A stretch of 34,286 bases of DNA from an uncultured Mycoplasmatota bacterium (GTDB lineage Bacteria; Bacillota_I; Bacilli_A; RF39; UBA660). The notes beneath the pieces are model-generated. The model was not told the origin of the DNA, made no database searches, and saw only the letters and a program-made list of their open reading frames with translations. The position numbers and the translations under genes were made by a program. Positions 9,618-28,781 of the stretch are shown piece by piece. The stretch lies in the NCBI GenBank assembly GCA_947643405.1, contig CANRVY010000017.1:1-34286 (forward strand). Reading direction: 5' to 3'. Within the stretch, counting starts at the first letter, position 1, and each line of letters starts with the position of its first letter.

Positions 9618-9810
9618 ACAATCTACTTTTGTTAGTTTTATGTCTCATAGTTATAGAAGACATCAAGTAGTATTTCATTTTATAGATGATTATTTATTAT
9701 GGTTATATGAGGAGTTATGCAATTATAATGAGACTATGTATTATCAGACATTAGAAGAAGATATCGTAAAGTTTTGTGAATTTCAGGAAAGGTGGAAAAG
9801 AGGATGTTAA
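9601..9810 (+). CDS. small hypothetical protein, paralog B, 69 aa
   Basis: The start has AAAGGAAG six bases upstream and lies inside the end of paralog A (17-base overlap). The similarity to paralog A covers residues ~28-60, with spacing conserved. The last codons overlap the start of the LexA-like gene. Tight coupling to a DNA-binding protein suggests a regulatory or anti-repressor role, but this is inference. Confidence 0.7.
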   Translation: MGRLNKQSTFVSFMSHSYRRHQVVFHFIDDYLLWLYEELCNYNETMYYQTLEEDIVKFCEFQERWKRGC

Positions 9811-10022
9811 CAAACAAACAAAAACAGGTTTTCAATGCAATTGAATATTTGATAGAAGAAAAAGGGTACTCGCCAACTTATCAAGAAATAGCGGATTTAT
9901 TAAATGTGAAAAATGTAAGTAATATATTTAATATTGTCATGAATTTAGAAAAAAAAGGATATGTCTCTACAAAACAAGGAAAAAGTAGAACCATTATGAT
10001 TGTAAAAAACAATCATGAATAA
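9804..10022 (+). CDS. LexA DNA-binding domain protein without peptidase domain
   Basis: The 72 residues match the N-terminal winged helix-turn-helix of LexA (start LTNKQKQVFNAIEYLIEE, then GYSPTYQEIADLL, then LEKKGYV). Full LexA has about 200 residues with a self-cleaving Ser-Lys domain; that part is absent here. The ATG at 9804 has AAAGGTGG at the right distance and is preferred over the GTG at 9792. A LexA-type DNA binder that cannot self-cleave could compete with host LexA or hold the tail operon off by another switch. A 26-base perfect palindrome lies 72 bases after its stop. Confidence 0.8.
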   Translation: MLTNKQKQVFNAIEYLIEEKGYSPTYQEIADLLNVKNVSNIFNIVMNLEKKGYVSTKQGKSRTIMIVKNNHE

Positions 10023-10202: not shown

Positions 10203-10356
10203 ATAAAGTGCTGTTGAAACGTTATGTTTCTCAAATTAAGAAAAAGTATGAAATTTTTAATTACTAAAAATCCAATGGGGATAAACCAAGTAAAGAATTA
10301 ATTATTATGTTAGTCAAATTAAAAATATTCATATAACTTTTAGGAAGGTGTTAAAA

Positions 10357-10737
10357 ATGATAGTAGCAGATTTATTTGAACAAACCATTTTTCCAAATTT
10401 AAAGGAGTATGTAGAATCGAATTCAAATGCCCTAGTGTCAAAAAAGAAAATAGATAGCTATCCATTAGTGGTAGTAAAACTGCTTCCAATTAAAAATCAA
10501 TATAGCAGTTTGAATTATGAAGAAGAAATTTACATATTTGGGATTGATATTAAAATATTTTCAAATGAAGATATTACTGTAATTACCAATAAAGTAATTG
10601 ATTATTTTAGAACGAACTTTCGATTAACTTTAAGATTGGAATTAGATGTGAGCGAAAGTATTTATCAAAATAATATTAGAGTAACTGGAAAAATGAAAGA
10701 TCATATTGTCTACCCATTTGAAGACTACAAAGAATAA
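10357..10737 (+). CDS. phage tail terminator-like protein
   Basis: The 126 residues resemble the small siphophage proteins that cap the tail tube and join it to the head: a core reading YPLVVVKLLP, then EEIYIFGIDIKIF, then a helix VITNKVIDYF and a final strand with RVTGKM. It is the first structural gene, directly before the tube gene, which is the usual position of a tail terminator. AGGAAGG lies eight bases before the ATG at 10357; a GTG nine bases earlier is less likely. No head or connector gene precedes it. Confidence 0.6.
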   Translation: MIVADLFEQTIFPNLKEYVESNSNALVSKKKIDSYPLVVVKLLPIKNQYSSLNYEEEIYIFGIDIKIFSNEDITVITNKVIDYFRTNFRLTLRLELDVSESIYQNNIRVTGKMKDHIVYPFEDYKE

Positions 10738-10776
10738 AAGCACTCTAAAAAGGGATTAGAAGAAAGGATGATTAAA

Positions 10777-11208
10777 ATGTTAGATTTAGGAATTGAATTA
10801 TTTGTTAAGGAAACAACAGAAGAGAAGTTTCCAAAATTACCATTAGTAGCAGTGAAAGGGGCTCCAGCAAGTGGACAAGCAGCAGGAACAGTTGAAACAA
10901 CAACTTCAAGTGATCCTGTAAAAGTATATATTGCAGATAGACCAGATACAGGTGCTATGGATTTTGTTTACAATTATTCAGCAGAAAATTTTGCGGCAGT
11001 AAAAGAAATTTGTGATAATGTTGCAAAAGATATTATGATTAAATATCCAGATGGAACAGGTGCTATGTATAGAGGTACTTGCCAAACTTGGAGAAATGAA
11101 GTATCAGTAGGTGGTATTATTGAATGTACTTTGCATACTGTACCAAGTGCACAGGTAGTTGATAAAACTGCAACAGAAGTAACCGCTTTAATGGCAGTAG
11201 AAGCATAG
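10777..11208 (+). CDS. phage major tail (tube) protein
   Basis: The position after the terminator-like gene and before the chaperones, the length of about 143 residues and the beta-rich sequence with an exposed Thr/Ser/Ala-rich turn fit a tail tube subunit. It would polymerise around the tape measure into the tail tube. The ATG at 10777 has AAAGGA eight bases upstream; an ATG at 10768 is too close to that site. Its many GCA, GGT and ACA codons differ from neighbouring genes, as expected for a highly expressed structural gene. No sheath gene is near, which points to a non-contractile tail. Confidence 0.7.
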   Translation: MLDLGIELFVKETTEEKFPKLPLVAVKGAPASGQAAGTVETTTSSDPVKVYIADRPDTGAMDFVYNYSAENFAAVKEICDNVAKDIMIKYPDGTGAMYRGTCQTWRNEVSVGGIIECTLHTVPSAQVVDKTATEVTALMAVEA

Positions 11209-11222
11209 AAAGAAGGGCTTTT

Positions 11223-11555
11223 ATGAGAAAGATTACAATAAATGTAAGTGATAAAGATTATGAGCTATTATTAAATCGTAATGGGATTAAATGGTTAGAG
11301 GCAAAAGGATATGTATATGAAAATTCTAATAAAACGCCAATTACAAATTATGATTTATTATGGACAGTTGGTTTTTTAGCAAATTATCCTAATTTTACAG
11401 AAGAAGAAATTTTGAAGTTACAAGATACTTATCGAAAAGAAAAAGGAAATCCAGCAGAAGTTACTTCGTTTATGGTAAATGAATATCTCGCTTTTATAAA
11501 TGCCCTAGTCGATACAAAATCAATCAAGAAAAAAGCGACGATAACAGAAATGTAG
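11223..11555 (+). CDS. tail assembly chaperone, short form (gpG-like)
   Basis: This 110-residue helical protein lies between the tube and tape measure genes, where siphophages encode the short tail chaperone. It should bind the tape measure and recruit tube subunits. It ends just after a run of six A (11529-11534), and the -1 frame continues open into the following reading frame, as in the lambda G/GT arrangement. Confidence 0.72.
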   Translation: MRKITINVSDKDYELLLNRNGIKWLEAKGYVYENSNKTPITNYDLLWTVGFLANYPNFTEEEILKLQDTYRKEKGNPAEVTSFMVNEYLAFINALVDTKSIKKKATITEM

Positions 11556-11959
11556 GAAAACAATATAAGAACTTGACAGATTGGTTTTATGATTTGCTTC
11601 CTATGGCAATTACATATGGTATGTCTGTAAAAGAGTTCTGGGAAGAAGACCCCGATCTTTTCTGGGCATACCGTTTTTCTTATATTGAAAGAATTAAGTT
11701 TGAAAATGAGGATAAAAATCAAACTGCTTGGCTACAAGGGGCTTATATATATGAGGCAGTATCGATTGCACTTGCTAATGCTTTTAGTAAACAAAAGTTA
11801 AATTATTCTAAATTACCTTATGGAGTAAAAGTAGAAGAAGATAAAGAAAAGATGTTAGAAGTGCAAGTAGCTGAAATTAAAGCAAGAATAAAACAAATCA
11901 ATAAAATAAAAACAGCACTTCCAGAAAGGGATAATACACCTGAGGAGGTGAAAGAATGA
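11223..11959 (+). CDS. tail assembly chaperone, long -1 frameshift form (gpGT-like)
   Basis: In frame -1 the reading is open from before the A-run (AAG AAA AAA GCG at 11526-11537) to the TGA at 11957. A slip near 11534 would give about 245 residues: 104 from the first frame and about 141 from the second (SDDNRNVGKQY, then LTDWFYDLLPM). The second frame has no good start of its own: TTG at 11573 has AGGAAA at least 13 bases away. G/GT frameshifting is conserved in long-tailed phages. The slippery stretch G AAA AAA G is plausible but not the best-known heptamer. The stop overlaps the tape measure ATG (ATGA). Confidence 0.68.
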
Positions 11960-13947
11960 GTAAAGAAACAATAAAATATAAATTTGAAGTGGAAGAAAGT
12001 GGAATATTAAATAATTTGAATAAAATTAGAATTATATTAGATGGAAGCAAAGATATTATTTCAGATTTTCAAAAATCTTTCATTAATTTTTCTACTAAAA
12101 CTTTTATATCAGAATTAGATAAATTAAAAATGAACCAAAGTATTCCATCATCAACTAGTTGGTCAGATGCCAAAGAGAACTTAAAAACATCATTAAGAGA
12201 TAAACCAAATAGAAATATTAATGATACTGCATTATTTGGAAGTTGGCAGGATCCAGTAACAGAGTATGCAACTATTGGAAATAATGCATTTGGTGGTGCA
12301 TTAGGACCAGTACTGGGAATAGTAAAAATGCTTGAAGATGCGGCAGATATAAATCTTTTTGGCGATATAGTGGGGAAAAAAGCCCAAATGGAATCATTGT
12401 CAACAACAATTTTAGAATTGTCTAATGTTACTAAAACATTTGCAAATAATTTATTAAGTAGTTATGATACAATTACACAAAGCTTGTCAAAAGAGAGTGC
12501 TTTAATAGACAATCATAAAGCGTTAGCTTCAGAATTAAAAACTATCGTTGATGAAAATGGCAACGTAAAAGCAGGATATGAAGATAGAGCACAATTTATT
12601 GTATCGGTTCTTAATGATGCATATGGAGTAGAAATGGGTTTGATTAATGGCACTATAAAAAATTATAAGGAAGAAATTCAGTCTGTTGAAGACATCATAA
12701 CAATGAAAAAACAAGAAATGGTTTTGAATGCTTCTGAAAAACAATATCAGTTAGCGTTAGAAACAAAAGTTGAAACATATAAAAATCTGAAAAGGGCGGA
12801 AGAAGAGCATAATATTGTATTGAATAAGCAGAAGGAAATAGAAACTGAAATAAATGAGCAATACAGAAAAGGAAAAGGTAAAAAAGGTGAATCGCTGGAA
12901 GAATTCACCAAAAGAATGATTGATGAAAATGAATATTATCAGCAAGTAACAGATTTGGCAATAAAAACACAAGAAACATTAAATGTTTCTAAAGCAGCTT
13001 ATGATGCTAATATACAAGCTAGAATGAATTATCAAGGACTCCAAACTGCAATTGCTAATAAGGATGCTGAAGCTATAGAATATTATACAAACAGAATAAC
13101 TAATTCATATTATGATGGGAAAAATATGATAGCATTTACTCAAGAAGAAATGCTAGATGAAGCAAAACTTTATCATAATAAGGTTTATGATTTAACAGAA
13201 GAAGAAAATTTAAAAATAGCAGATTCTTTAAAAAGAGGAGCAGATTATGCACTAGAATCTACAAGAAATGGTTTATTAGGACAAACAACAAGTGTAGAAT
13301 CGCTAACTCCAAGTGTTATAGAAGCGTGGGGAGAATTGTCAAAAGGTAGTACAGAAGAGTTTTTAGAGTATTTTAATAAAATACCAGAAAATGTGCGACA
13401 AAATATAATTGATAAAATGGAACAGCAAGGATTTGACATCAGTAACGAGCTAGAAAAAGGATTAAAAGAAAATAATCCTGAAATCGTTATAAAATCCAAA
13501 GCAGAAAAAGCAACTGTATTAATTGATGCTGATACTAGAGAAGCAGAAAGAAAAACTAATAACTGGCTAAGTGGAGTATTAGGATCAGTAATAGGAGGAG
13601 CATGGATTCTTAAAAAAGAGTGTGGTGGCATTTATACAAATGGTTCTTGGCTGAAAATTCCACAATATGCTAATGGTGGATTACCAAATCATGGAACGAT
13701 GTTTATAGCAGGAGAAAGAGGAGCAGAAATAGTAGGGCATATTAATGGAAGAACAGAGGTTTTAAATAAATCTCAGATAGCAAGTGCAATATATACAGCA
13801 GTAGCAACTGCTATGAGTCAGTATGGAGGAAAAGGTCAAGATATAAGAGTATATGCAGAAGAAGGACTAATTGTGGAAAAAGTATCAAATGGTATTAATC
13901 AATATGTGAAACAAACAGGCATATTACCTTTTGATATTCCAATATAA
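11956..13947 (+). CDS. tail tape measure protein
   Basis: The 663 residues sit right after the chaperones. The N-terminal part and the centre are helical, with charged coiled-coil-like stretches. The C-terminal ~110 residues carry the typical tape measure end: YANGGLPNHG, FIAGERGAEIVG and GRTEVLNKSQI. It sets tail length and occupies the tube. At about 0.15 nm per residue this suggests a tail near 100 nm. GGAGGTG lies five bases before the start and the ATG overlaps the previous stop. A second copy of its last ~27 codons lies at 14528-14608. Confidence 0.88.
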   Translation: MSKETIKYKFEVEESGILNNLNKIRIILDGSKDIISDFQKSFINFSTKTFISELDKLKMNQSIPSSTSWSDAKENLKTSLRDKPNRNINDTALFGSWQDPVTEYATIGNNAFGGALGPVLGIVKMLEDAADINLFGDIVGKKAQMESLSTTILELSNVTKTFANNLLSSYDTITQSLSKESALIDNHKALASELKTIVDENGNVKAGYEDRAQFIVSVLNDAYGVEMGLINGTIKNYKEEIQSVEDIITMKKQEMVLNASEKQYQLALETKVETYKNLKRAEEEHNIVLNKQKEIETEINEQYRKGKGKKGESLEEFTKRMIDENEYYQQVTDLAIKTQETLNVSKAAYDANIQARMNYQGLQTAIANKDAEAIEYYTNRITNSYYDGKNMIAFTQEEMLDEAKLYHNKVYDLTEEENLKIADSLKRGADYALESTRNGLLGQTTSVESLTPSVIEAWGELSKGSTEEFLEYFNKIPENVRQNIIDKMEQQGFDISNELEKGLKENNPEIVIKSKAEKATVLIDADTREAERKTNNWLSGVLGSVIGGAWILKKECGGIYTNGSWLKIPQYANGGLPNHGTMFIAGERGAEIVGHINGRTEVLNKSQIASAIYTAVATAMSQYGGKGQDIRVYAEEGLIVEKVSNGINQYVKQTGILPFDIPI

Positions 13948-13970
13948 AAATAATGCACTATAGTGCATTA
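13944..13970 (-). terminator. terminator of lipoprotein gene 1
   Basis: AATGCAC (13952-13958) and GTGCATT (13963-13969) form the stem. On the minus strand a T-rich tract follows; on the plus strand none does, so tail-operon transcription can pass. Confidence 0.7.
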
Positions 13971-14339
13971 TAGTTCGTCATCCCGACATTTTATATTAGC
14001 AATTTTAATTTTGAATTTTGTAATAATATCTTCATAATCGCCGATATACATACATTTTGCAGTAAAAGTTTCTCCGTTATCAAATTTTGGCCATTCTAGA
14101 CAAGTTTTATGTATCTCAGTTCCATTTCTTTTATAAATTAAATCAATTGCTATAGAATTGCATTTTTTAGGACTAGTATTAGTAATATCAGCGACTGCTA
14201 TAGCTAGTCCAGTAGAACTTTGTTCCCATTTAAAAGGAGTAGCTTCGAAATTTAAATACCACGCTTTTTCCTTTTTCTTTTCACCACATCCTGTAAATAA
14301 AAATAAACTACAAAGTGCTAATAAACAAAACTTTTTCAT
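13968..14339 (-). CDS. lipoprotein 1, antisense to the tail operon (moron)
   Basis: The 123-residue product starts with a signal peptide ending in the lipobox LFTGC, with the lipid-carrying Cys at residue 18. The exported part (about 105 residues) has several Cys and a beta-rich look. It has GGAGGAG eight bases upstream, its own promoter (TTTACT, 17 bases, TATGAT) and its own terminator, so it is made independently of the tail genes. It lies directly behind the tape measure gene. Lipoproteins in prophages can block DNA entry by related phages; Ltp of phage TP-J34 acts on a tape measure protein. A self-protection role is therefore an attractive inference. Family not recognised. Confidence 0.82.
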   Translation of the reverse strand: MKKFCLLALCSLFLFTGCGEKKKEKAWYLNFEATPFKWEQSSTGLAIAVADITNTSPKKCNSIAIDLIYKRNGTEIHKTCLEWPKFDNGETFTAKCMYIGDYEDIITKFKIKIANIKCRDDEL

Positions 14340-14367
14340 GAACTAACTCCTCCTTAATTATTTATTA

Positions 14368-14396
14368 ATCATATCATAATATATGATAAAAGTAAA
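14368..14396 (-). promoter_or_regulatory. promoter of lipoprotein gene 1
   Basis: On the minus strand TTTACT (14391-14396) is followed after 17 bases by TATGAT (14368-14373). This allows expression while the tail operon is silent. Confidence 0.65.
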
Positions 14397-14527
14397 TGAA
14401 TGATGAAGTTACAAATAGGACTTTTAAAAAAGGTATGGAAGAAAAAAATATAATAATAATTAAAGAGGGTTATGAAGCTAAATAGAAATGAATTATTAAA
14501 TTGCAAAATGATGTTTATAGAATAAAG

Positions 14528-14608
14528 TCTAATTGTAGAAAAAGTATCAAAGGGAATTAATCAACATGTAAAACAGACTGGCTCATTACCATTTGTTATT
14601 CCAATATA
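14528..14608 (+). pseudogene. stranded second copy of the tape measure 3' end
   Basis: The frame reads LIVEKVSKGINQHVKQTG, then SLPFVIPI and a stop, against LIVEKVSNGINQYVKQTG, then ILPFDIPI at the true tape measure end. The copy has no start and no upstream domain. It is followed by a hairpin, as is the true end. The stretch before it (14396-14485) holds only a 29-codon frame without a ribosome site and the lipoprotein 1 promoter. This is a remnant of an alternative tape measure gene end. Confidence 0.85.
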
Positions 14609-14636
14609 AAAAATAATATGCAAAAACATATTATTA
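14605..14636 (-). terminator. terminator of lipoprotein gene 2
   Basis: AATAATATG (14612-14620) and CATATTATT (14627-14635) form a 9-bp stem, with a T-run on the minus strand. Its position relative to the tape measure remnant is the same as for terminator 1 and the true end. Confidence 0.7.
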
Positions 14637-14651
14637 ATACTATTTTTAAAT

Positions 14652-14879
14652 CTATTGTGCAGTAGAATCTTTAACACATTCTTTGTATCCTGACTCATCA
14701 AAAAATAATTCCATACCATCAAATTCAGCATTAGCACAATTATTATTTTCCCATCTTCCACCATATTGTTGGCAACAACTTTTTTTCGCTGTATTTGTAA
14801 CATCGTTTTCTATTTTCTTTTCACCACAACCAGTAAATAATAACAGACTACAAATTACTAACAAACTAAACTTTTTCAT
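14652..14879 (-). CDS. lipoprotein 2, antisense to the tail operon (moron)
   Basis: The 75-residue product has nearly the same signal peptide as lipoprotein 1, including LFTGCGEKK with Cys 18. The mature part is different: short, with four Cys (SCCQQYGG, NNCANA, KECVKD) that could form two disulfides. AGGAGG lies eight bases upstream. It has its own promoter and terminator and lies behind the tape measure remnant, as lipoprotein 1 lies behind the intact gene. It is therefore likely an older or alternative version of the same cargo. Function as for lipoprotein 1 is inferred. Confidence 0.8.
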   Translation of the reverse strand: MKKFSLLVICSLLLFTGCGEKKIENDVTNTAKKSCCQQYGGRWENNNCANAEFDGMELFFDESGYKECVKDSTAQ

Positions 14880-14899
14880 ATCTTTCCTCCTATATTTTT

Positions 14900-14928
14900 A
14901 TTGTATCAAAGTTTATCAGAAAAAGAAA
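14900..14928 (-). promoter_or_regulatory. promoter of lipoprotein gene 2
   Basis: On the minus strand TGATACAAT (14900-14908) is an extended -10; a weak -35 TTTCTT (14923-14928) lies 17 bases upstream of TACAAT. Confidence 0.5.
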
Positions 14929-14940
14929 GATGGTGAATTT

Positions 14941-15378
14941 ATGATAAAAGAATTTATAAATGGAAATTATCACTATATATTAGGAAGTCCAGCCACTGTA
15001 ATATCAAAAGTAAAAATCAATGGTGTTGACATTTCTAAATATTTAACCAATGAATCAAAAATCGGTTGGTATGATGTAACAAGCGATTCAAATGCTACCA
15101 ATGCAGATGGAACCATGGTATTTAATGTCATCAATACAAAATACCGTTTGGACTTAGTTACAAGACCATTATTAGAATATGAACTAATCGATTTTTATAA
15201 AGAAATACTAGAAAATCCCACTGTAACAATTGATTTCTATAATCCTTTTACAGGAACTTGGAAACAAACCAGATGTTATAGAGGAGATAGAGGGGTACAA
15301 GCGATGTACCCAATTGAAACACCAGAGGATAGAGTAGAACTATATAGTCCTATCTCACAATCCTTTATAGAACTGTAG
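14941..15378 (+). CDS. phage tail-module protein, DUF6711-like
   Basis: The 145 residues contain VKINGVDIS near the start, an alpha/beta middle, and YNPFTGTWKQ with CYRGDRG towards the end. This pattern matches the small proteins between tape measure and tail-tip genes in siphophages (DUF6711); I assign it by recall of that pattern, not a search. It probably plays the distal-tail role, since no separate Dit is visible. The ATG at 14941 is used because the longer frame runs back through the antisense lipoprotein gene. The ribosome site is weak. Confidence 0.6.
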   Translation: MIKEFINGNYHYILGSPATVISKVKINGVDISKYLTNESKIGWYDVTSDSNATNADGTMVFNVINTKYRLDLVTRPLLEYELIDFYKEILENPTVTIDFYNPFTGTWKQTRCYRGDRGVQAMYPIETPEDRVELYSPISQSFIEL

Positions 15379-15385: not shown

Positions 15386-17293
15386 ATGAATGATTTTATC
15401 GAAGCGTGTAAAAAAGGCGCAAATAAAGATAGACTTGGAATATTAAAAATAGGAGAAAGAGAAATAACAGGAAGTGATTCTTTAAAAAGTTTTACAGTAG
15501 AAGAGAGCTGTTATGTAGATGGTTCTATCATAGGAGCTATCTATATCAAATGTTTGACAGGTGAATTTGTAAATTTAAATGAAAGTTTGTTAGAAAAAAG
15601 GATAGAAGCTAAAGTAGGGATAAAGAGAAACGAAACGATTTGTCATCTAGGAAATTATATTGTAGAGAAACCAAAAGATGAAAAAACTTCAAGTTTTAGT
15701 AGTATCAAAGCTTATGATTATTTGATAGATAAAATAGATGAAAAATATGTATGTGGAATTAACTATGAAGAACAAGATGAAACAAACAAAATATGTGTAT
15801 CTGATTTATATCAAGATGTTTGTAGAAACTTAGGTTTCACTCCTAAAACAATTGAATTTTTAAATAGTGATATTGAAATATTCAATAATCCATTTACCAA
15901 TAATGAAACCAATAGAACTGTTTTAAAAGCAATTGCAACAGTTGCTTGTTCTTTTGTAGTAATAGATGAAAATAATCAAATTGATTTATCTTGGTTAAGT
16001 GACACTTTAGATTATACATTTTTGAAAAGTGATTATTCTACTTTAGAAAGCAATGATACTGTTTTAGGACCTATCAATACGGTGGTTTTAAAAAATAGCG
16101 AAGTGGATGATGAAAACGTTACAAAAAAAGCAGAAAATGTAGAAATAGAGCGTTCTATTGTGATTAGTGAGGACTATATTTTGTATGATGCAGAATTAAG
16201 AAAAAAGGCAATTGATAAAATCTTTGAACGATTAAATGGACTTACTTATGTAGATATGAAGTTAACAACTTATTATGGAAAACCATTTTTAAAAATGGGT
16301 TCAAAAATAAAGATAGAAACAGATAATGGATTTCTAGAAACTTATGTTTTAAAACATCAATTTACATTTAATGGTGCTTTTACAAGTACCATAGAAAGTC
16401 CATTAGAAACAGAACAAGAAATTAAAACAAAACAAAATGTTACTTTAAAAGAAGCATTAAAAAATACACAAATTATAGTAGATAAGCAAAATCAAAAAAT
16501 AGAAGCAATTGTAAAAGAAGTTGATACATCCAATGAAACTATGAAAGAAATGAAAAATGAAATTACTCAAAACAAAGAAGAGACAACAAACTTAATTAGT
16601 CAAACAGGTGGAAGCAATTTACTTGTAAATTCTCAGTTTTATCAAGAAGCAGACGGATGGACAACAAGTGAAAATACAAATCTAGAAGTTCTTACATCTG
16701 GACATGATATTGAACATAACACAGTTAATAAAACAGAATTGATATTAAAGAATGGGATTTTATCTCAATATATCTCTTTAATAGTGGGAAAAGAATATAC
16801 AATTTCTTTTAAATATAAAAAAAATGGAATTAATACTAGAAAATCAAGTATTAAAATGTATTGGACAGAAAGTGAATTTGAAACAGTTTTAGAACTTACT
16901 AGTGCGATAATTAATAGAACAAATAAAGCTTACTCTTTTATAGCTCCTACTAGTAGTGCAAAAATAGTAATAGAAACAGACCAAGATGAATTTTATATGA
17001 GTGATTTTATTATTCAAAGTGGCACAAGTACAGAATGGTCTCCAAATGCATTAGAAACAAGAGGACTTGGACATAAATTAACTAAATCAGATTTAGAACT
17101 CTATGATTTAGGAAAATCAAACGAGAAAGCAAATTTAGACTATAATAATTTAACTTTTTATCAAGGAAACAATTTAAAAGCAGAATATGGTGCTGATAAT
17201 ATGCAGGTAGAAAAAGGGCTTGTAAAAACATCATTTGAAATGTGTGGTTTAGTCATACGAAAAATAGATGATGACAATGTCATTGTAAATTAG
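15386..17293 (+). CDS. tail-associated baseplate protein (Tal-like) with carbohydrate-binding-like module
   Basis: The 635-residue protein follows the DUF6711-like gene, where siphophages encode the tail tip hub. The first ~340 residues resemble the prophage tail hub/endopeptidase fold (YIVEKPKDE, AYDYLIDK, then a repeated hub domain). Residues ~345-405 are coiled-coil-like. A jelly-roll-like domain starts near 410 (GSNLLVNSQF, then GWTT) and runs to about 560 (STEWSPN), as in CBM4/9-like modules of tail tips. No clear peptidase motif is visible. It probably ties the tube to the fibres and contacts cell-wall sugar. RBS upstream is weak; the stop is 10 bases before the next start. Confidence 0.7.
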   Translation: MNDFIEACKKGANKDRLGILKIGEREITGSDSLKSFTVEESCYVDGSIIGAIYIKCLTGEFVNLNESLLEKRIEAKVGIKRNETICHLGNYIVEKPKDEKTSSFSSIKAYDYLIDKIDEKYVCGINYEEQDETNKICVSDLYQDVCRNLGFTPKTIEFLNSDIEIFNNPFTNNETNRTVLKAIATVACSFVVIDENNQIDLSWLSDTLDYTFLKSDYSTLESNDTVLGPINTVVLKNSEVDDENVTKKAENVEIERSIVISEDYILYDAELRKKAIDKIFERLNGLTYVDMKLTTYYGKPFLKMGSKIKIETDNGFLETYVLKHQFTFNGAFTSTIESPLETEQEIKTKQNVTLKEALKNTQIIVDKQNQKIEAIVKEVDTSNETMKEMKNEITQNKEETTNLISQTGGSNLLVNSQFYQEADGWTTSENTNLEVLTSGHDIEHNTVNKTELILKNGILSQYISLIVGKEYTISFKYKKNGINTRKSSIKMYWTESEFETVLELTSAIINRTNKAYSFIAPTSSAKIVIETDQDEFYMSDFIIQSGTSTEWSPNALETRGLGHKLTKSDLELYDLGKSNEKANLDYNNLTFYQGNNLKAEYGADNMQVEKGLVKTSFEMCGLVIRKIDDDNVIVN

Positions 17294-17303
17294 GAGGTGG
17301 AAA

Positions 17304-19253
17304 ATGCCAGTATTATATAATAACACAATTAGCGTAGTCAATGTAGAAAATAAAGCAAAGCAATATGAATTTCGATTGGAAGTAATATTAAATTCTCAAA
17401 ACAGTATAACAGGAACTTCTAATATTACAATTAATTCTTATGCAAAAGGTATTTATGGTTCCTATTCTTTATATAAAACACCAAGAGAGATTCTTATTCA
17501 AAATGGAATTACAAGAGCAGAGGTAGCAGTAGGAGAGATTCCATTAAATAGTGAGGTTAGAATTGCAACATGGACAGGTAATGTAGAACATGATTATGCA
17601 GGAAATTATACATTATCAGTAAGCAGAAATTATAATCCAAATGCTACGGTATCTTATTTGCCAAAAGCAAATTTTGATAGCTTTTCTGTAGAACTTCCAA
17701 ATATTCCTAGAGCTAGTACTTTAGAAAAAATAGATGCAAATTTTATAGTAGAAGATGGAGTTAATATTAATGTTAATAAACCAGCAAGTTTTTACGATGT
17801 ATTAGAAGTATATATTTGGGGAGATAATGAAGTTTATCAAAAAATAGCAACTAGAGAATCTTTTCAAAAAGGATTATTTCAGTTTTCTACAAATGAAATG
17901 GAAATGATTTATCAAGTAACGACTAGAGCGAAAACAATGGATTTTAAATTTGTTTTAACAACTTATTCTAATTCTAGTAAAATGACAACTATTGGAAATT
18001 CAAGCGTTGTCATTACCAAAGGAAATTTAAAAGATGAAAACATTAGACCTGTTTATACAGAAACACAATTTACATATAAAGATATAAATGAGAAAACATT
18101 AGCTTTAACTGGAAATAATCAAATTTTAATTCAAAATTATTCTAATATTGAAGTTACATTATTAGAAAAAGCAGTAGCTCGTAAATATGCTTATTTAAAA
18201 GATGGATCTTATGAGATAAAAGTTACTACAGAAAATGAATTTGAAAGAAAATCAATTAATGAAGCAGATGAATTTCCGGTTTCAAAAACTTTTTCAAATA
18301 TTTATGGAAAAGATTTGGTAGTAACAGTTATTGACTCACGTAAAAATGAAACGATTTGCCTAAAAGAAATGACAATTTTAGATTATCAAAATATTTTATT
18401 TGATAAAAAAAATTCTAAAGTAGTAAGAGAAGCAGATGTAGAAAAGAAAACATTATTAACATTAAAAGGTACTTATTATGAATTTGAAAATGCAAATAAT
18501 GGTATTACAAAATGTATTTGTAAATATCGAATAAAAGGAAGTTCTGTAGATTATATAGAAGAAGATATTACTAATGCTATTCAATATGCAAATGGAATTT
18601 TTGAATTAAATAATTATGTATTAGGAGATCTTGATGTATCTAATGAATATGAAATTTTTATTGAAATTGAAGATCAATTGTCAAATGATAGTTTAAAACT
18701 AGATTTAAATAGTGCGAAGCCATATCTTTGGCATATGAAAAAAAAGAAGATTATGGGAATAGGAGGAAAACCAAATACTAGTTTAAAAGAAGGGTCTTTA
18801 CATCTTTATGGTGATATTAAAGTAGAAGGAAAATATATTGATATTTATCCAGTTGGTTCAATCTATATGAGTGTTAGTAATACGAATCCAAGTACTTTAT
18901 TTGGGGGAACTTGGGAACAAATTAAGGATTGCTTTCTATTAAGTGCTGGAAATACTTATACAGCAGGTAGTGTGGGAGGAGAAGCACAAGTAACTTTAAA
19001 AGTTTCAGAAATGCCAAAGCACACTCACACTCAAAATCCTCATGGTCATCCACAACATCCTGATACTTGGATGAATGTTGATAATCCTTGGGTTCCTAAA
19101 TCAGGTTATTATTATGCACATTCTGGAAACGGTGTTTCGAATAATTATTGGACAGGAAGCGTAACTGCTACCAATAACAATACTGGGGGAGATAGTCCTC
19201 ATAACAATATGCCTCCATATTTAGCTGTTTATGTTTGGAAAAGAGTGTCATAG
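17304..19253 (+). CDS. tail fibre / receptor-binding protein with collar-type tip (DUF859-like)
   Basis: The 649-residue protein starts with a beta-rich siphophage domain (about 1-135; ITGTSNITINSYAKG, then YGSYSLY) of the DUF859 type. Several beta repeats follow. The C-terminal ~130 residues form a tail-collar/Gp10-like tip: YPVGSIYMS, TLFGGTWEQI, EMPKHTHTQNPH and NNMPPYLAVYVWKR. The His-rich part can bind metal in related fibre tips. It should recognise the target cell surface. AGGAGGTGG sits six bases upstream. The tip is nearly repeated in the gene at 20646, so tips may be exchanged. Confidence 0.75.
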   Translation: MPVLYNNTISVVNVENKAKQYEFRLEVILNSQNSITGTSNITINSYAKGIYGSYSLYKTPREILIQNGITRAEVAVGEIPLNSEVRIATWTGNVEHDYAGNYTLSVSRNYNPNATVSYLPKANFDSFSVELPNIPRASTLEKIDANFIVEDGVNINVNKPASFYDVLEVYIWGDNEVYQKIATRESFQKGLFQFSTNEMEMIYQVTTRAKTMDFKFVLTTYSNSSKMTTIGNSSVVITKGNLKDENIRPVYTETQFTYKDINEKTLALTGNNQILIQNYSNIEVTLLEKAVARKYAYLKDGSYEIKVTTENEFERKSINEADEFPVSKTFSNIYGKDLVVTVIDSRKNETICLKEMTILDYQNILFDKKNSKVVREADVEKKTLLTLKGTYYEFENANNGITKCICKYRIKGSSVDYIEEDITNAIQYANGIFELNNYVLGDLDVSNEYEIFIEIEDQLSNDSLKLDLNSAKPYLWHMKKKKIMGIGGKPNTSLKEGSLHLYGDIKVEGKYIDIYPVGSIYMSVSNTNPSTLFGGTWEQIKDCFLLSAGNTYTAGSVGGEAQVTLKVSEMPKHTHTQNPHGHPQHPDTWMNVDNPWVPKSGYYYAHSGNGVSNNYWTGSVTATNNNTGGDSPHNNMPPYLAVYVWKRVS

Positions 19254-19579: not shown

Positions 19580-19858
19580 ATGCAAGAATTTATGAATTGG
19601 GAAATTTTAACTACTTATGCAACTTTTGTAACTGTTGTATTTATGGTAGTGGAATTTATTAAAGAATTAAAATATGTAAAAAAAATAAAAACAAAATATG
19701 TAAGTTTTTTAGTCGCGTTGATTTTATTGACGATTACTAATTTCGCACTTCATACATTTCATGTTTTAGATATTACTTTATATATATTAAGTGCGATTAG
19801 TATTAGTTTAGGAGCAAACGGATTAAATGATTTTAATAGAAAAGGAGGAATTTTATGA
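19580..19858 (+). CDS. phage holin
   Basis: The 92 residues hold three predicted membrane helices (about 9-27, 41-58 and 64-81) and a charged C-terminus, the class I holin pattern. It lies directly before the endolysin, overlapping it by four bases. It would open the membrane so that the endolysin can reach the wall. Confidence 0.75.
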   Translation: MQEFMNWEILTTYATFVTVVFMVVEFIKELKYVKKIKTKYVSFLVALILLTITNFALHTFHVLDITLYILSAISISLGANGLNDFNRKGGIL

Positions 19859-20640
19859 AAAAAGGAATGACAAGTATTAGAAATGGAGTAGAAGATTTAC
19901 TTTGTCCATTTGAATATGTAGGAATTAGCCAACCAGCAAATGGAGCCTATTCTCATCAAGGAACAATGGCAAATGATATTGGTTTTAAAGATATTAGAAA
20001 TCCATATGAACCATATTATGCACCTTGTCATATTAAATGTATTCATATATGGAAAGACTATGGACAAGCTATGTGGCAATCGATAAACAAAGTTCGTTTT
20101 ACAGATGGTTCTGTTGATTATCTTACTTTTGTAACAGCACATGATAATTCATTTACCACAACAGTTGGAACGGAAAGACAACAAGGAGAATTAATTGGTC
20201 ATAAAGGAAACAAAAAAGCAAGTGGTGTTCATGCTCATATTGAGTGTGCAAAAGGATTATATAGTGCGAAAGATTGGAAATATAATTCTTATGGCAATCC
20301 ATGTTTTCCTAATGAAATCAATATTGATGAAGTATTCTTTTTTGATGAAACAGAACTAAGTAAAAATCATATTCCAAGTACTTATAAAATCAAATACTTA
20401 AAAGATGTTGTATTAGAAACATCATCTAATAAAGAACCGCTTCCTTTAAAAGTAGGAGACCAAGTAAAAATTATAAAAACAGGAAATGGTTCTAGTTTAG
20501 GAACTTCAAATATAGCTTATGGAATTGGCTGGGATAGAAAAATATTAAAAATTTGGGAAGATAGACCTTATCCATATCAAGTAGGAAATGAAACAGGAAC
20601 AACAGGCTTCTATAGAAGAGAAGCATTAGAAAAGAGGTAA
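19855..20640 (+). CDS. endolysin, M23-type peptidase with SH3-like C-terminus
   Basis: The 261-residue protein carries M23/LytM zinc-binding residues: His34 and Asp41 in YSHQGTMANDIGF, and HxH at 126-128 in GVHAHIE. M23 peptidases cut peptide cross-links of the cell wall. Residues ~190-260 (LKVGDQVKIIKTG, GFYRREALEKR) resemble an SH3-type wall-binding domain. There is no signal peptide, so it depends on the holin. AAAGGAGG lies eight bases upstream and the start overlaps the holin stop. Confidence 0.85.
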   Translation: MKKGMTSIRNGVEDLLCPFEYVGISQPANGAYSHQGTMANDIGFKDIRNPYEPYYAPCHIKCIHIWKDYGQAMWQSINKVRFTDGSVDYLTFVTAHDNSFTTTVGTERQQGELIGHKGNKKASGVHAHIECAKGLYSAKDWKYNSYGNPCFPNEINIDEVFFFDETELSKNHIPSTYKIKYLKDVVLETSSNKEPLPLKVGDQVKIIKTGNGSSLGTSNIAYGIGWDRKILKIWEDRPYPYQVGNETGTTGFYRREALEKR

Positions 20641-20645: not shown

Positions 20646-21245
20646 ATGAACGAAACAATAAATTCTGTTTTTACAGAAACACAAGATGGAGTAAATGCAT
20701 CCATTAATCAATTAGAAGTAACTTGTATTACTTCAAAACAAAACAAATTTCACTTAGATAGTGAAGGAAATTTATCCGTAAATAGTATCACAACAGTAGT
20801 TGATAATCCAAATACAACAGTTGATTTTAACTCTATTTATCCAATTGGTTCTATTTATATGAACACAGCTTTGGTAGAACCAACAACGCTTTTTGGAGGA
20901 ACTTGGGAATTGTTAAAAAATAGATTCTTAATTGGAGCAGGAGATTTATATGAAGTAGGAGAAATGAAAGGCGAAATAGAGCATAAATTAACAAAAGAAG
21001 AAATGCCAAAACATACTCATACTCAAAACCCACACAGTCACACACAACATCCTGATACTTGGATGAATGTTAATAATACTTGGGTTCCTAAATCAGGTTA
21101 TTATTTTGCGGATTCTGGAAATGGAATATCCAATAAATATTATACTGGCAATACAACCGCAACTAATAATGATACAGGAGGTTCACAACCTCATAACAAT
21201 ATGCCTCCATATTTGGCAGTTTATATGTGGAAGAGAGTCGCTTAG
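20646..21245 (+). CDS. second tail-collar tip protein
   Basis: The 199 residues consist of a short N-terminal linker (about 1-60) and a collar/Gp10-like tip. The tip is close to the C-terminus of the fibre at 17304: YPIGSIYM, TLFGGTWE, MPKHTHTQNPH, NNMPPYLAVYMWKR. It lacks the large DUF859 shaft. It lies after the endolysin, an odd place for a fibre gene. It could be a second receptor-binding subunit, a spare tip for exchange, or an adaptor next to the Rhs gene. AGAGGTAAT lies before the start. Confidence 0.75.
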   Translation: MNETINSVFTETQDGVNASINQLEVTCITSKQNKFHLDSEGNLSVNSITTVVDNPNTTVDFNSIYPIGSIYMNTALVEPTTLFGGTWELLKNRFLIGAGDLYEVGEMKGEIEHKLTKEEMPKHTHTQNPHSHTQHPDTWMNVNNTWVPKSGYYFADSGNGISNKYYTGNTTATNNDTGGSQPHNNMPPYLAVYMWKRVA

Positions 21246-21282: not shown

Positions 21283-24200
21283 ATGGAAAAAGAACTAAAA
21301 AATTTAAGAAAGAAAAACGAAAAACATTTTTTACAAGATGATGGAACAATTATTGCGAAAATGTATAGAGAAAATATCCACTATTTAAAAGATGGTATTT
21401 ATGAAGAAATTGATAATACATTAATTAAAAAAGGAAATAAAATTCAAAATAAAAGCAATGAATTTAAAGCATCTTTTAGTGAAAATGATAAAAATAAATT
21501 ATTAGAAATGGAAAGAGATGGACATAAACTTTCAATGAGTTTAAAAAATGAAAATGAAGTTTGTCCAAATGTAAAGAATACAGAAATTTGTTATCAAGAA
21601 TTATTAGAAAGTATTGATGTTACTTATAAAGTATTATCTAACAAAGTAAAAGAAGCGATTCTTTTAAAAGAAAACAAATATAAAAAGTTAGAATTTGTAA
21701 TTGAAACAGATTTAGAATTAAGTATCAAAGATAAAACAATAGAAGCTAAATATAACAATGAAATTATCTTTGTAATAGAAGCTCCTTATATGATGGATGC
21801 AAACAATATTGAAAATCATAATATTTATTACACTTTAGAAAAACATAGCAATCATTATGATGTAATACTATATTTAGATACTGAATGGTTAGAAAAAGCT
21901 AAATTTCCAGTGATTATTGATCCAACTATAACAAACTATAAAGATGGCGGAGTGACATATGATACCTATATCTTTGAAGGAGATAAAGACTACCCAAGGG
22001 GACACTCAAAAAAATTATGGCTAGGAGTACATAAAGAAGATGATGGAACAATAGAAAAGTATCGTGCATTATTCAAATTTAATTTGCCTAAAATAGGAAC
22101 AGGAAGTCAAATTATAGGAGCTGAAGCAGTCATGCTAGCATTTGGAAATCCATATGATAAACAAGACATTTTTGTAGTTCATAAAATCAACAAAGAATGG
22201 GATGAAAATACAGCAACTTATAAAACGATGTGGAATGCTTATGACTCTAGAATAGAAGCTTATAGTATGTTTAGAACATCATTACATTTATCCAATTGGG
22301 GACCAGAAGAATATAATCATATTGATATTACAAACTTGGTAAAATCTTGGTATTCAGGAGAACCAAACAATGGAATTATGATTAAAAGCTACTATGAAGT
22401 CTATGATCCAGATATAAATAGTTTGCTAATTTATTCTAGTGAAAATGATGAGAAAGCAAATCCTCCATATCTATTAATCCATTATAGAAATCAAAATGGA
22501 TTAGAAAGTTATATGGATTATCAAACACAGAGTTTTACAGATGGAAGTACAAGTGCGAATTTATATAATGGAAACTTAGTATCCGTATGGAATGTTGGGA
22601 AAACAGTATCAGGAAAGTTCCCCGTTAATTTAGACCTTATTTATAATACCAATGATATCATTTTAGAAACCAATTATGGATATGGTTTAGGAGAACAACT
22701 GAGTCTTCATCAAACATTAGAATTTGAAACCATTGAAGAATTTGAAAAAGATGAAAAACTTATCATGCTAAGATATAAAGATGGAGATGGAACCTATCAT
22801 TACTTTTATAAAGGAAGTGATATTACACCTACTCCAGTAGAAGGCTATGAATTTGATGTTGTTGAAAGAAACCCAGAATCTTATTATGACGAAGATGGAT
22901 TATCTTTGGTAATTACAAAAGATAATGACAATTTTATGATGCAAGATAATGATGGCAATACTTCTTATTTTACAAAAAATGGGGATATTTGGTATTTAAC
23001 AGAAATCAAAGATACAAAAGAAAGTACTATAAAAATAGAATATTTGAATAATAAAATTGTGAAAGTGATTGATGGAAATGAAAAAGAAATTACGGTTACT
23101 TATGGAACAAATGTAATCACAGTAACAAGTCCAAATGAAACTGTTACACTAAATTATGAAAATAATCTATTAAAAAGTATTGTATCAAAAAATGGAACAA
23201 CAAGTATAGAATATAATAGTAACAAAATCATTACTAAAATTACAGATATAACAGGAAAAAGTATTGGTTATGAATATTATGATATGATTCCATATCGAGT
23301 AAAAAAGATCAGTGAATATGGAATAAATAATACTTTAGGAAATTATTTAGAATTCATTTATGGATTTAATGTAACAACAGTAAAAGACAATAAAAACAGA
23401 AGCCAAACTTATACGTTTAATAATAATGGAAATACAGTAGGAATTACTAATTTAGATGAAGATGAAAATCTAAACGAAGCATTTGGAAAATCGATGATTT
23501 ATGGTTCTAAAGATCAATATACAACTTCATTTGGAAGTGTTAATAAATTAGTATCAGAAAATTCTATGGTAAAAGTTGTAAAAAACTATTTACAAAATTC
23601 TAGTTTTGAACAAGATACAAATGACTTATTTTTTACTACAGATAGTGAGAATGTTCAAATTTCAATTTCATCTGATTATGCAAATACAGGATCAAAAAGC
23701 TTATATATAAAATCCAATGTAATGAATGAAAAAGCGATTTTAAATAAAGCATTTGTAGGAAAACCAATACATGCTTATACATTTAGTATGTATGTAAAAA
23801 ATGATGTTCCATTTAAATTAAAAACATCAGTGTCTTTAGCAGATTCTGTAGGTGGATCACAAGGAAAAGCAATAGAAATTCCAATTAACCTAGAATTTAC
23901 ACGATATGATATTTCTTTTTTACAAAACATAAAAGATAAATCATCAACAATATCATTAGAAATTGAAAATCCAGGAAATATTTATATTGATGATGTTCAA
24001 ATAGAAGATGGGCAAACAGCCAATCTTTATAACTTAATTGATAATTCAGATTTTAGCGATGGAACAATGAATGGTTTTTCATTAGGATATAGTAGAATTT
24101 TTGAAACTCCAGCTCCAGAAGAAATTCCAACTATGAATGTTGTAGATATAGGAAATGCAAAGGCATTAAAAATAACAGGAAGTCCTTATTTAAGTGAAGC

Positions 24201-26643
24201 AATTGAAAAGACTTTTCCTGTAAGTGGGAAAGCTGGAGATATTTATACGATTTATTTCTGGTATAAAAATGAAGAAACAGTGAACGATGTTTATACTACA
24301 CGTAGAAGAGTATTAATTAGTTTTGATTATGGAGAAGTAGATGATCCACATTGTTTAATTCCAAGAGGAACATTTACGCAAAATAATACAACTTGGCATT
24401 TATTTGAAGCTACTTTTATGGCAGAATATGATTATACAAATTTTAAATTGAATATTTTTAATGATTGTAATGCAAACAATTTATATTTAACGAATTTTGG
24501 ACTTTATAAACCAATTGCAAGTACAGGATATGATTATGATTCTAATGGAAATGTAACAACTGTTCATGATCCTCTTTCAGGTCCAAAAGAATTATCTTAT
24601 GATAAGAATAACCAATTAGTAGGAATGTTAGATGTAAAAGGTTCTAACTTTGTCTATGAATACGATAATGAAGTTAAGACAAGAGTGTTAAAAGGAATCA
24701 GTGCAACTGGAATTTCTAATGAAATTGAATATGATGAATTTGGAAATCCAATTATTACCAAAATTACCAATAAAAACACAAGAGAAGCAATAGAAGGTAT
24801 TTACCACATTCGTATGAAAGGAACAAAGAAATATTTTGATAATAACTTTTATGCCAACATGATTTCTTTAAGAGAAGATTGCTGTAGTCATGATGGATAC
24901 AATTTCATAAAAGAAGATAATTATTATAAAATAATTCCAATTGATAATCCAAATTATGCAATTCATCATTTTGGTGAAAGAATTACATTAAGTAAAACAG
25001 AATATTCTTTATTTGAACTCATTAAAAATAAAAATGGAAGTTATATGTTCAAATTAAAACAAGAAATTGATGAAAATGAAGAAATATCTGGAGTAGAAGA
25101 ACAACCTAAAATCTATGTCACATTTGATAATGAAAAATTAGTTTTAGAGAAAAAAGAAATAGAAAACCCAAATCAAAACTTCTATTTAGAAGAAGCAGGA
25201 AATCATTTATTTGTAGTTAATACTGCTGAATATACAGAAGATGGAAAATATATAAAATCTACAAAAGATACTTTAGGAAGAACAACAACTTATGATATTG
25301 ATACAGAAACAGGTTTAACAAAAAGTGTTACAGATTCAAAAGGGATTTCTGTAAATTATACTTATAATAGCAAAGAACAATTAACCAAAGTAGAAAAAGA
25401 TGATAAAAAAGTAGAATATGAATATAATGATAAGAACCTATTATCTAAAATTAAACATGGAACAAAAGAGTACAATTTTACTTATGATGAGTTTTTAAAT
25501 ACTAAAACAATTGGAATTGGGAATCATTTATTAATTACCAATAATTATGAGGAAAATAATGGGAATTTAAGTTCTTCTACTTATGGAAACAATGATACGA
25601 TTTCTTATACATATGATAAATTTGATCGGGTAAAAACAATTACTAAAATGAATGGAACTTACACGTATTATTATGACAATTTAGGAAATGTAGCTAGAAT
25701 TGCATTTAATGATAAAGAAATTTATAGATACCAATATGATTTATTAAAGCGATTAACAGATTATCAATATAATAGTTTTAGAATCAAATATAAATATGAC
25801 GAAACAAGTAATGTAAAAGATAAATACTTTAATAGTTTAGAGACTGCTCATCATATTCATTATGAATACAATAAAGATAATGCAGTAACAAAAATAGTAT
25901 TTGATAATTCATTAGACACAAAAGACAATACCCCTTATCAAGATGAATTAGTATATAAGTATGATGAATTAGGAAGAGTGACAGAAAAGAACTTAAATGA
26001 TACTTATAAAACAAATTATCATTTTATTACAAAAGGAAAGAGAACATCATTTATATTAGATAAGTTGAAAGACAACTTTAATGAGTTTGAATATAAATAT
26101 GATAGTTTAGATAATATAACAGACATTTATAAAAATGGAGATTTAATCAATCATTATGAATATGATAATTCTAATCAGTTAATAAAAGATGATGATTATG
26201 AAAGTGGCATTACAACTATTTATAGTTATGATAATGTAGGAAATATCATATCTAAAAAAGATTATCGATTACAAACAGAAAGATTATTACATGAAGATAT
26301 TTATGAATATAATAACACTAATTGGGAAGATCAATTAACGAAATTTAATGATGAAAATATTACTTATGATGAAATAGGAAATCCATTAACCATTGGAACA
26401 AAAACATTAACATGGATAAATGGAAGACAGTTAGAAAGTATTGTAGATGGAAATAATACAATTACTTATGAGTATAACAAAGATGGAATCAGGACTAAGA
26501 AAACAGTAAATGGAAAAGAAACAAAATATTTACTAGAAAATAATAATATAATATTTGAAGAAAGTCCAAAAGCTATGATATACTATAAGAGAGATGAGAA
26601 TAATCATCTAATAGGATTTAGACACAATTATAAACACTATTAA
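21283..26643 (+). CDS. WapA/Rhs-type YD-repeat shell protein, cut off before its toxin tip
   Basis: The 1786-residue frame starts with AAAGGAG upstream. Domains: an Rhs N-terminal domain (1-220, ending FPVIIDPT), a DNRLRE domain (about 225-402), first YD-repeat part (about 410-760), two jelly-roll-like modules (about 765-1080; NSSFEQD and DNSDFSD), a ricin-like beta-trefoil insert (about 1170-1300) and the main YD repeats (about 1310-1786). YD repeats form a hollow shell around a C-terminal toxin. There is no Sec signal peptide: the N-terminus reads MEKELKNLRKKNEK. A TAA at 26641-26643 ends it ahead of the conserved tip; the same frame continues in the toxin gene at 26680. Uninterrupted, the protein would have about 2080 residues. 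Confidence 0.88.
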   Translation: MEKELKNLRKKNEKHFLQDDGTIIAKMYRENIHYLKDGIYEEIDNTLIKKGNKIQNKSNEFKASFSENDKNKLLEMERDGHKLSMSLKNENEVCPNVKNTEICYQELLESIDVTYKVLSNKVKEAILLKENKYKKLEFVIETDLELSIKDKTIEAKYNNEIIFVIEAPYMMDANNIENHNIYYTLEKHSNHYDVILYLDTEWLEKAKFPVIIDPTITNYKDGGVTYDTYIFEGDKDYPRGHSKKLWLGVHKEDDGTIEKYRALFKFNLPKIGTGSQIIGAEAVMLAFGNPYDKQDIFVVHKINKEWDENTATYKTMWNAYDSRIEAYSMFRTSLHLSNWGPEEYNHIDITNLVKSWYSGEPNNGIMIKSYYEVYDPDINSLLIYSSENDEKANPPYLLIHYRNQNGLESYMDYQTQSFTDGSTSANLYNGNLVSVWNVGKTVSGKFPVNLDLIYNTNDIILETNYGYGLGEQLSLHQTLEFETIEEFEKDEKLIMLRYKDGDGTYHYFYKGSDITPTPVEGYEFDVVERNPESYYDEDGLSLVITKDNDNFMMQDNDGNTSYFTKNGDIWYLTEIKDTKESTIKIEYLNNKIVKVIDGNEKEITVTYGTNVITVTSPNETVTLNYENNLLKSIVSKNGTTSIEYNSNKIITKITDITGKSIGYEYYDMIPYRVKKISEYGINNTLGNYLEFIYGFNVTTVKDNKNRSQTYTFNNNGNTVGITNLDEDENLNEAFGKSMIYGSKDQYTTSFGSVNKLVSENSMVKVVKNYLQNSSFEQDTNDLFFTTDSENVQISISSDYANTGSKSLYIKSNVMNEKAILNKAFVGKPIHAYTFSMYVKNDVPFKLKTSVSLADSVGGSQGKAIEIPINLEFTRYDISFLQNIKDKSSTISLEIENPGNIYIDDVQIEDGQTANLYNLIDNSDFSDGTMNGFSLGYSRIFETPAPEEIPTMNVVDIGNAKALKITGSPYLSEAIEKTFPVSGKAGDIYTIYFWYKNEETVNDVYTTRRRVLISFDYGEVDDPHCLIPRGTFTQNNTTWHLFEATFMAEYDYTNFKLNIFNDCNANNLYLTNFGLYKPIASTGYDYDSNGNVTTVHDPLSGPKELSYDKNNQLVGMLDVKGSNFVYEYDNEVKTRVLKGISATGISNEIEYDEFGNPIITKITNKNTREAIEGIYHIRMKGTKKYFDNNFYANMISLREDCCSHDGYNFIKEDNYYKIIPIDNPNYAIHHFGERITLSKTEYSLFELIKNKNGSYMFKLKQEIDENEEISGVEEQPKIYVTFDNEKLVLEKKEIENPNQNFYLEEAGNHLFVVNTAEYTEDGKYIKSTKDTLGRTTTYDIDTETGLTKSVTDSKGISVNYTYNSKEQLTKVEKDDKKVEYEYNDKNLLSKIKHGTKEYNFTYDEFLNTKTIGIGNHLLITNNYEENNGNLSSSTYGNNDTISYTYDKFDRVKTITKMNGTYTYYYDNLGNVARIAFNDKEIYRYQYDLLKRLTDYQYNSFRIKYKYDETSNVKDKYFNSLETAHHIHYEYNKDNAVTKIVFDNSLDTKDNTPYQDELVYKYDELGRVTEKNLNDTYKTNYHFITKGKRTSFILDKLKDNFNEFEYKYDSLDNITDIYKNGDLINHYEYDNSNQLIKDDDYESGITTIYSYDNVGNIISKKDYRLQTERLLHEDIYEYNNTNWEDQLTKFNDENITYDEIGNPLTIGTKTLTWINGRQLESIVDGNNTITYEYNKDGIRTKKTVNGKETKYLLENNNIIFEESPKAMIYYKRDENNHLIGFRHNYKHY

Positions 26644-26901
26644 TATATAAAAAATGCACAAGAAGGCATTATAGGAATTATGGATAGTGATTATAATGTA
26701 ATAGCAAACTATAAATATGATGCATATGGTAAAGTAGTTTCTATTACAGATAATGAGAAGAAAGAAATCACTGATACCAATCATATCGCTTATATCAATC
26801 CATTTAGATATAGAAGCTATTACTATGATGAAGAGACAAAATTATATTATTTAAATTCTAGATATTATAATCCTTTATTTGGTAGATTTATTAATGCTGA
26901 T
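26575..26901 (+). repeat. Rhs tip repeat, copy 1 (resident)
   Basis: This ~327-base segment encodes the end of the YD core up to YNPLFGRFINAD. Near-identical copies occur at 28958-29283 and 30721-31047, and a decayed copy at 32669-32780. Divergence begins right after GRFINAD, the known boundary between Rhs core and variable toxin. This copy has TAA at 26641 where copy 3 has TAC. Confidence 0.92.
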
Positions 26902-27525: not shown

Positions 27526-27868
27526 AAAGCATAATAAAAAAATTATTATTATTTGTTTAATAATGATATTATATACTGCATGTAATAGTAGACTGATAAT
27601 GTATGGATTGCCAAAAGGAGAATACATATCAAGTTTAGCATCTCCAAATAAAAATTATATTTTAAATGCGTATCGTTATAGCGGTGGAGCCACTATGGAT
27701 TGGAGTTTAAGAGTAGAGTTAGAAAATAATAAAACTAAAAAAAAGATAAATATTTATTATAAATATCATCAATTTAAGGTAGATATGAAATGGATAGATA
27801 ATGAAAATGTAGAAATTAATGGAATTAAACTAAATATTTATAAAGACTATTACAAAAAGGAAAATTAA
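27509..27868 (+). CDS. putative immunity lipoprotein, DUF5412-like
   Basis: The 119-residue protein begins with basic residues, a hydrophobic segment (about 11-24) and a lipobox-like YTACNSR. The exported part reads LPKGEYISSLASPN, GGATMDW, ENNKTKKK and WIDNENVEINGIKLN, the pattern of DUF5412 proteins. It overlaps the type 44 toxin by 17 bases, typical for toxin-immunity pairs. If it is a lipoprotein, it would act at the outer membrane face, before the toxin enters. This is inferred from context. Confidence 0.72.
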   Translation: MIEIIKKHNKKIIIICLIMILYTACNSRLIMYGLPKGEYISSLASPNKNYILNAYRYSGGATMDWSLRVELENNKTKKKINIYYKYHQFKVDMKWIDNENVEINGIKLNIYKDYYKKEN

Positions 27869-27903
27869 GACATATATTAATTATAATTTTAAACTACTAA
27901 AAG

Positions 27904-28223: not shown

Positions 28224-28272
28224 GATAGCTATTACATGAGCGGCAAATAGTGAAAAAGGAGGAGTTTTTAAT

Positions 28273-28773: not shown

Positions 28774-28781
28774 TAATTTGA

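Follow-up and report, generated by a model that had tools for sequence, protein, structure and literature searches.

A tail gene cluster carried by small-genome gut Bacilli was found to hold a recombining slot of antisense lipoprotein genes between its tape measure protein (TMP) gene and its probable Dit gene. The window spans the entire contig CANRVY010000017.1 (GenBank; C17, 34,286 nucleotides) from a 1.55-Mb draft genome of an uncultured Mycoplasmatota bacterium, and its slot reads, from TMP to Dit, TMP, lipoprotein A, a remnant of the TMP 3′ end, and lipoprotein B. It seems an even bet that the slot serves surface lipoproteins protecting against tail particles of this family. It is also possible, although I hold it tentatively, that the slot is an immunity-gene array of a tailocin, in which the TMP of a headless tail is the killing part to be neutralised and interchangeable orphan lipoproteins anchored in the membrane set survival of kin particles.

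The tail cluster and its neighbours

The locus was sampled in three genomes (G000, to which the window belongs, and G001 and G005 of the same genus) and in two viral records (G387 and G388). The organism is known here from MAGs and viral contigs alone. In the window, host genes for an ABC transporter, a regulator, a radical SAM protein and a NUDIX protein lie upstream of the tail cluster, all of whose tail genes are on the plus strand. The cluster opens with a gene for a LexA DNA-binding-domain protein without peptidase (9792–10022; Pfam LexA_DNA_bind, E=7e-16), directly 5′ of the tail genes. There follow a minor tail protein, a major tail protein and two genes named tail-assembly-chaperone-like by position (together 10348–11959), and then the TMP. 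The major tail protein (10768–11208; PHROG major tail protein, E=2e-8) is 96.5–100% identical in amino acids among related loci. Beyond the TMP and the lipoproteins, the first tail gene is a probable Dit (DUF6711-like; 14941–15378; dN/dS 0.09 against G005). It is followed by baseplate/tail proteins whose distal parts are swapped between strains, as seen from profile searches and strain comparison (15386–19253), a holin and an endolysin (19580–20640; profile matches, dN/dS about 0.17), a tail collar/fibre-like protein (20646–21245; Pfam Gp10_C, E=3e-22) and an RHS-repeat protein. The distal baseplate/fibre genes within 15386–19253 form a second hypervariable block between strains of one species.

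An RHS-repeat gene lies 3′ of the tail genes in all five tail-only loci. In the window, the region 21283–32513 encodes an RHS-repeat protein of 1786 aa and then three displaced RHS C-terminal fragments with small genes between them, which is a classic Rhs orphan array. The displaced fragments have the stretch MDSDYNVIANYKYDAYGKV in common, and one carries a Bacterial toxin 44 domain.

A terminase was not found in G000, G001, G005, G387 or G388, while the same query was positive in the headed relatives G390, G391, G367 and G383. No head or packaging gene was found at the locus, and there are no head ORFs between the LexA-like gene and the tail genes. In the headed relatives, the gap before the tail genes holds the terminase (with portal and head genes where these were profiled), and in G390, G367 and G391 the counterpart of the LexA-like gene sits before the head genes. 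Four of the five tail-only loci share their host flanks, and the G001 contig starts within the locus. Tail and lysis genes are under purifying selection in several genomes (dN/dS 0–0.2; 0–0.15 for the tail protein and the chaperone). Since terminase and head genes are absent, the flanks are fixed and dN/dS is low, the locus is probably a domesticated, non-contractile siphophage tail cluster resembling an F-type tailocin, and not a complete phage. The initial annotation had assumed that the producer makes its own particles. The locus would indeed make particles, but these would be headless tails and not those of a phage.

The tape measure end and the antisense lipoproteins

The TMP (11956–13947, plus strand, 663 aa) has a variable body and about 97 conserved last codons. 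The window TMP has no Pfam or PHROG match of its own, and phage records searched with it gave weak matches only, without annotation. The gene is called a TMP because of its position, its 33% identity over 653 aa to the TMP of the headed phage G390, and its C-terminal region, which is 69% identical to that of a protein on another contig of the same genome (C39), a clear TMP (PHROG, E=7e-36). TMPs of the tail-only loci are 518–695 aa long, against 1145–1267 aa in the headed G390, G367 and G383. The TMP is the ruler of tail length; thus, the tails of the tail-only loci would be about half as long.

The C39 protein belongs to a second module, found in G000 (C39; L044 4464–11683), G001 (C56) and G005 (C17), and located near leuS in the last two. 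Purifying selection (dN/dS 0.13–0.16) maintains in this module a LexA-like gene, a pair of chaperone-like genes and a TMP that is intact, with no recognised tube or Dit; a TMP without its tail is odd. Its TMP is followed by an antisense gene for a prepilin-like Ig surface protein. Between the chaperone-like genes and the TMP, an antisense array (L044 5634–7150, minus strand) encodes two to four YbjQ-like paralogues, each some 90 aa long, and their number varies among genomes.

As the initial annotation had noticed, the TMP 3′ end and an antisense lipoprotein gene are present twice in the window. The TMP 3′ end at 13857–13950 recurs as a direct repeat at 14519–14612, with 85% identity over 94 nt. 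The second copy, on the plus strand, is a remnant without a start codon. It has an in-frame TAA at 14523–14525, then 27 sense codons (SLIVEKVSKGINQHVKQTGSLPFVIPI) and a stop, and it is orthologous to the G001 remnant (95%). Because TMP-end remnants recur in relatives, one in G001 and two in G387 (about 256 and 230 nt), the duplication does not result from chance.

Lipoprotein A (13968–14339, minus strand, 123 aa) is adjacent to the TMP and has a dN/dS of 0.15 against G001. Lipoprotein B (14652–14879, minus strand, 75 aa) is displaced, adjacent to Dit, and has a Cys-rich domain (CC..GG.W..C..FD..Y..C). A second repeat, of 97 nt and 77% identity (14266–14362 and 14806–14902), covers the leaders and start regions of both genes. 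The shared signal peptide with differing mature parts, also described initially, is confirmed: A and B have the leader MKKF...LFTGC in common, with LFTGC as the lipobox in both, and their mature parts are unrelated. AF2 predicts A with moderate confidence as an all-beta protein forming a beta-sandwich (pLDDT 70), and B as a small Cys-rich helix-hairpin-helix protein with high local confidence (pLDDT 84–92 for the mature part). The lipoproteins have a dN/dS of about 0.15.

Each gene has a terminator of its own. An intrinsic terminator of A lies at 13950–13971 (minus strand), with its U-tract abutting the TMP stop (terminator scan; fold z −2.6 on this strand), and folding together with a comparison of cassettes places a terminator-like hairpin of B at 14610–14645 (minus strand). 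A hairpin with a U-tract abutting the TMP stop closes every cassette in the tail-only loci, and is also present in G383; the stems differ between cassettes. A promoter scan found no more sites than in shuffled sequences.

Searches of A and B against Pfam, PHROG, NCBIfam and PADLOC returned matches to the signal peptide only, and their models had no PDB match at E<=0.001 (solved structures and Foldseek). Weak EexN/SP0191 matches were discarded, as they covered the leader alone. A was searched for in viral contigs and none was found. The Cys-rich domain of B also ends two host proteins, a pilin-like protein of a Tad-like locus and a zinc-ribbon membrane protein (L010 1486–1725; L011 1297–1641), neither with a link to phage.

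Lipoprotein arrays and block exchange in relatives

Is the order in the window common to its relatives? Among the five tail-only loci, the array holds between one and four lipoproteins and no more than two remnants of the TMP end. From TMP to Dit, G001 has X, a remnant and A; G387 has X, a remnant, C, D, a second remnant and B; G388 has E and B′; and G005 has a single BB, with two copies of the Cys-rich domain. Lipoprotein A is thus adjacent to the TMP in the window and lies behind a remnant in G001, and the B family is adjacent in G005, L106, L107 and G383 and displaced in the window, G387 and G388. This agrees with the earlier proposal that a new unit displaced an old one. G005 and G388 also have an extra antisense lipoprotein of 267 aa 5′ of the tail genes, whose N-terminus, leader included, resembles that of A. 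An antisense, frame-broken relative of the G005 protein was observed behind a TMP in another genus (L072 3223–4053).

Phage and prophage relatives use the same antisense slot: L106, L107 and the prophage G383 each have one B-family lipoprotein, and the single one in G255 belongs to the X family (the terminase confirmation covers G383 alone among these four). The idea that the lipoproteins are confined to headless loci was dropped when these relatives were found. In 13 other distinct phage loci of the tail family, Dit follows the TMP within about 25–96 nt, with no lipoprotein. Related phages thus carry zero or one lipoprotein; only the five tail-only loci showed arrays and remnants.

Comparison of strains suggested how the arrays may have arisen. 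By their flanks, which are mostly 97–100% identical in protein (two flank genes, 77–83%), the window and G387 are of one species. Their DNA matches at 99.1% as far as position 11985, shortly after the TMP gene begins. Beyond it, nucleotide similarity all but vanishes in the TMP body and stands at about 85% identity in the TMP end, and the adjacent lipoproteins differ; similarity returns at the remnant. A like pattern was found for G005 and G388, also of the same species, which are 99.4% identical to just inside the TMP and then replaced. In both same-species pairs, the TMP body and the adjacent lipoprotein(s) were thus exchanged as one block. A crossover between a donor remnant and a recipient TMP end would bring in the new block, with the previous lipoprotein ending up behind a remnant. 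The leader of G001 lipoprotein A is exactly that of window lipoprotein B, with 96.7% identity in the flanking DNA; therefore, the signal-peptide sequence is, on this comparison, a second recombination anchor.

According to the initial annotation, the two TMP ends differ and each lipoprotein matches one of them. The first does not hold in any strong sense: the two ends are close to each other in sequence, and among relatives the TMP end stays constant, with the variation lying in the TMP body and the mature lipoproteins. The second fails. Among ten 94-nt TMP ends compared, the ends did not track the adjacent lipoproteins, and matching was rejected, which is the outcome that the initial annotation had itself named as refuting it. 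The remnants of the window and G001 are 95% identical and have the TAA lesion in common, yet they carry B and A, respectively, and the two A-linked ends are only 82% identical. What survives is a looser immunity reading, in which any specificity would have to be broad or reside in the body of the TMP. In this small set of five loci, the two block replacements support a link between body and lipoprotein, and X, which adjoins TMPs with bodies only 32% identical (G001 and G387), tells against strict linkage.

Possible function of the slot and known systems

It is proposed that the slot works as follows. Since the lipoprotein genes are antisense to the late tail operon and each has its own terminator, they may be made in uninduced cells. 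The products would be anchored outside the cytoplasmic membrane, presumably at the surface, and would most likely keep the TMP of own, kin and related-phage particles from penetrating the membrane. Repeated TMP ends may recombine with each other, as may repeated signal-peptide sequences, and so bring in new blocks of TMP and lipoprotein, and the older lipoproteins behind the remnants would remain as an orphan immunity stock. Such a mechanism is suggested by the position, strand and terminators of the genes, the block replacement, the selection on displaced copies, and precedents. Several observations tell against it: X is kept across the two dissimilar TMP bodies and the TMP ends do not follow the lipoproteins, as far as these sequences go; the 13 phage loci do without a lipoprotein gene; the Cys-rich domain of B occurs in host proteins; there is no promoter excess; and no sequence or structural match of the lipoproteins to any known exclusion or immunity protein was found.

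The main rival is a serious one, if rather doubtful. The gap between TMP and Dit may simply be permissive for antisense units, so that the lipoproteins are moron cargo serving the host otherwise (in adhesion, the envelope or redox) and the repeats drive recombination at the slot. The second module fits this idea, as in three genomes the same TMP end is followed there by an antisense surface protein that is not a lipoprotein. So do the host Tad-locus pilin-like and zinc-ribbon proteins with the Cys-rich domain, the diversity of the mature parts, and TMP ends that vary independently of the lipoproteins. Against the cargo reading, a few small-lipoprotein families (B, X and A-like) recur strictly at the slot across different genera, whether the locus has a head or not, old lipoproteins are under purifying selection, and TMP body and lipoprotein were replaced jointly in both same-species pairs.

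It is unlikely that the lipoproteins serve superinfection exclusion only, by excluding headed siphophages of the same tail family, with the tail-only locus having inherited the slot. The slot does exist in L106, L107, G383 and G255, and Ltp, discussed below, is a precedent, but exclusion alone does not explain the arrays and displaced copies of the five tail-only loci. That the duplication and the lipoproteins are recombination debris of a decaying prophage, as missing head genes and remnants with stops and without start codons might suggest, is very improbable, because several genomes have intact tail, lysis and lipoprotein genes that evolve under purifying selection, and the chromosomal locus is conserved.

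The protective reading would matter for tailocins. Their producers are generally held to resist their own particles since the particle cannot bind the producer's surface; a review describes self-resistance via LPS that does not bind the tailocin, and no immunity genes (PMC12090994). If the lipoproteins neutralise the TMP, tailocin immunity would be an inherited and exchangeable trait that sequence can predict, as with colicins or CDI. The lipoproteins would then be natural blockers and a genetic handle on how a TMP crosses the membrane.

The Ltp lipoprotein of phage TP-J34 acts through the TMP (PMC3952083). Like A and B, it is a small lipoprotein encoded by a phage, its synthesis probably falls outside the lytic programme, and its proposed target is the TMP of incoming particles. 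By the features tested, A and B are not members of the Ltp family, and Ltp is an analogy and not a homologue. A lipobox is present in both A and B, but no sequence relation to Ltp was found. The mature part of Ltp consists of Ltp repeat domains, unlike the predicted beta-sandwich of A and alpha-beta-beta-alpha fold of B. Ltp lies in the lysogeny module; A and B are part of the tail module, where they separate TMP from Dit. Ltp is acidic and its TMP target has a basic C-terminal region; here, the last 150 TMP residues have a net charge of −3 to +2, and the pI is 7.8 for A and 4.6 for B. Arrays with displaced copies are a feature of the tail-only loci and not of Ltp.

F-type tailocins (F-pyocin, monocin and rhizoviticin) resemble the locus in having a siphophage-like tail and lysis genes without head genes at a fixed chromosomal site. 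Unlike them, the present locus, whose particles are predicted from its genes, carries candidate immunity lipoproteins in an array. TMP relatives also serve as effectors in contractile systems of Actinobacteria (Sle1 relatives and Tme), one of them paired with an immunity protein (PMC13277306); the word "lipoprotein" is absent from that paper, and orphan arrays are not described in it.

Orphan toxin/immunity arrays have been described (PMC3150448), and the array with displaced lipoproteins behind TMP-end remnants resembles them. In orphan cdiA-CT/cdiI and rhs-CT/rhsI pairs, too, displaced 3′ fragments each come with a small gene, and what is the main pair in one genome is an orphan in another. 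The present small genes differ from cdiI and rhsI in being antisense, with their own terminators and putative targets. In the CDI and Rhs systems the polymorphic toxin C-terminus covaries with the small gene, whereas here the TMP end is constant and the small gene is variable.
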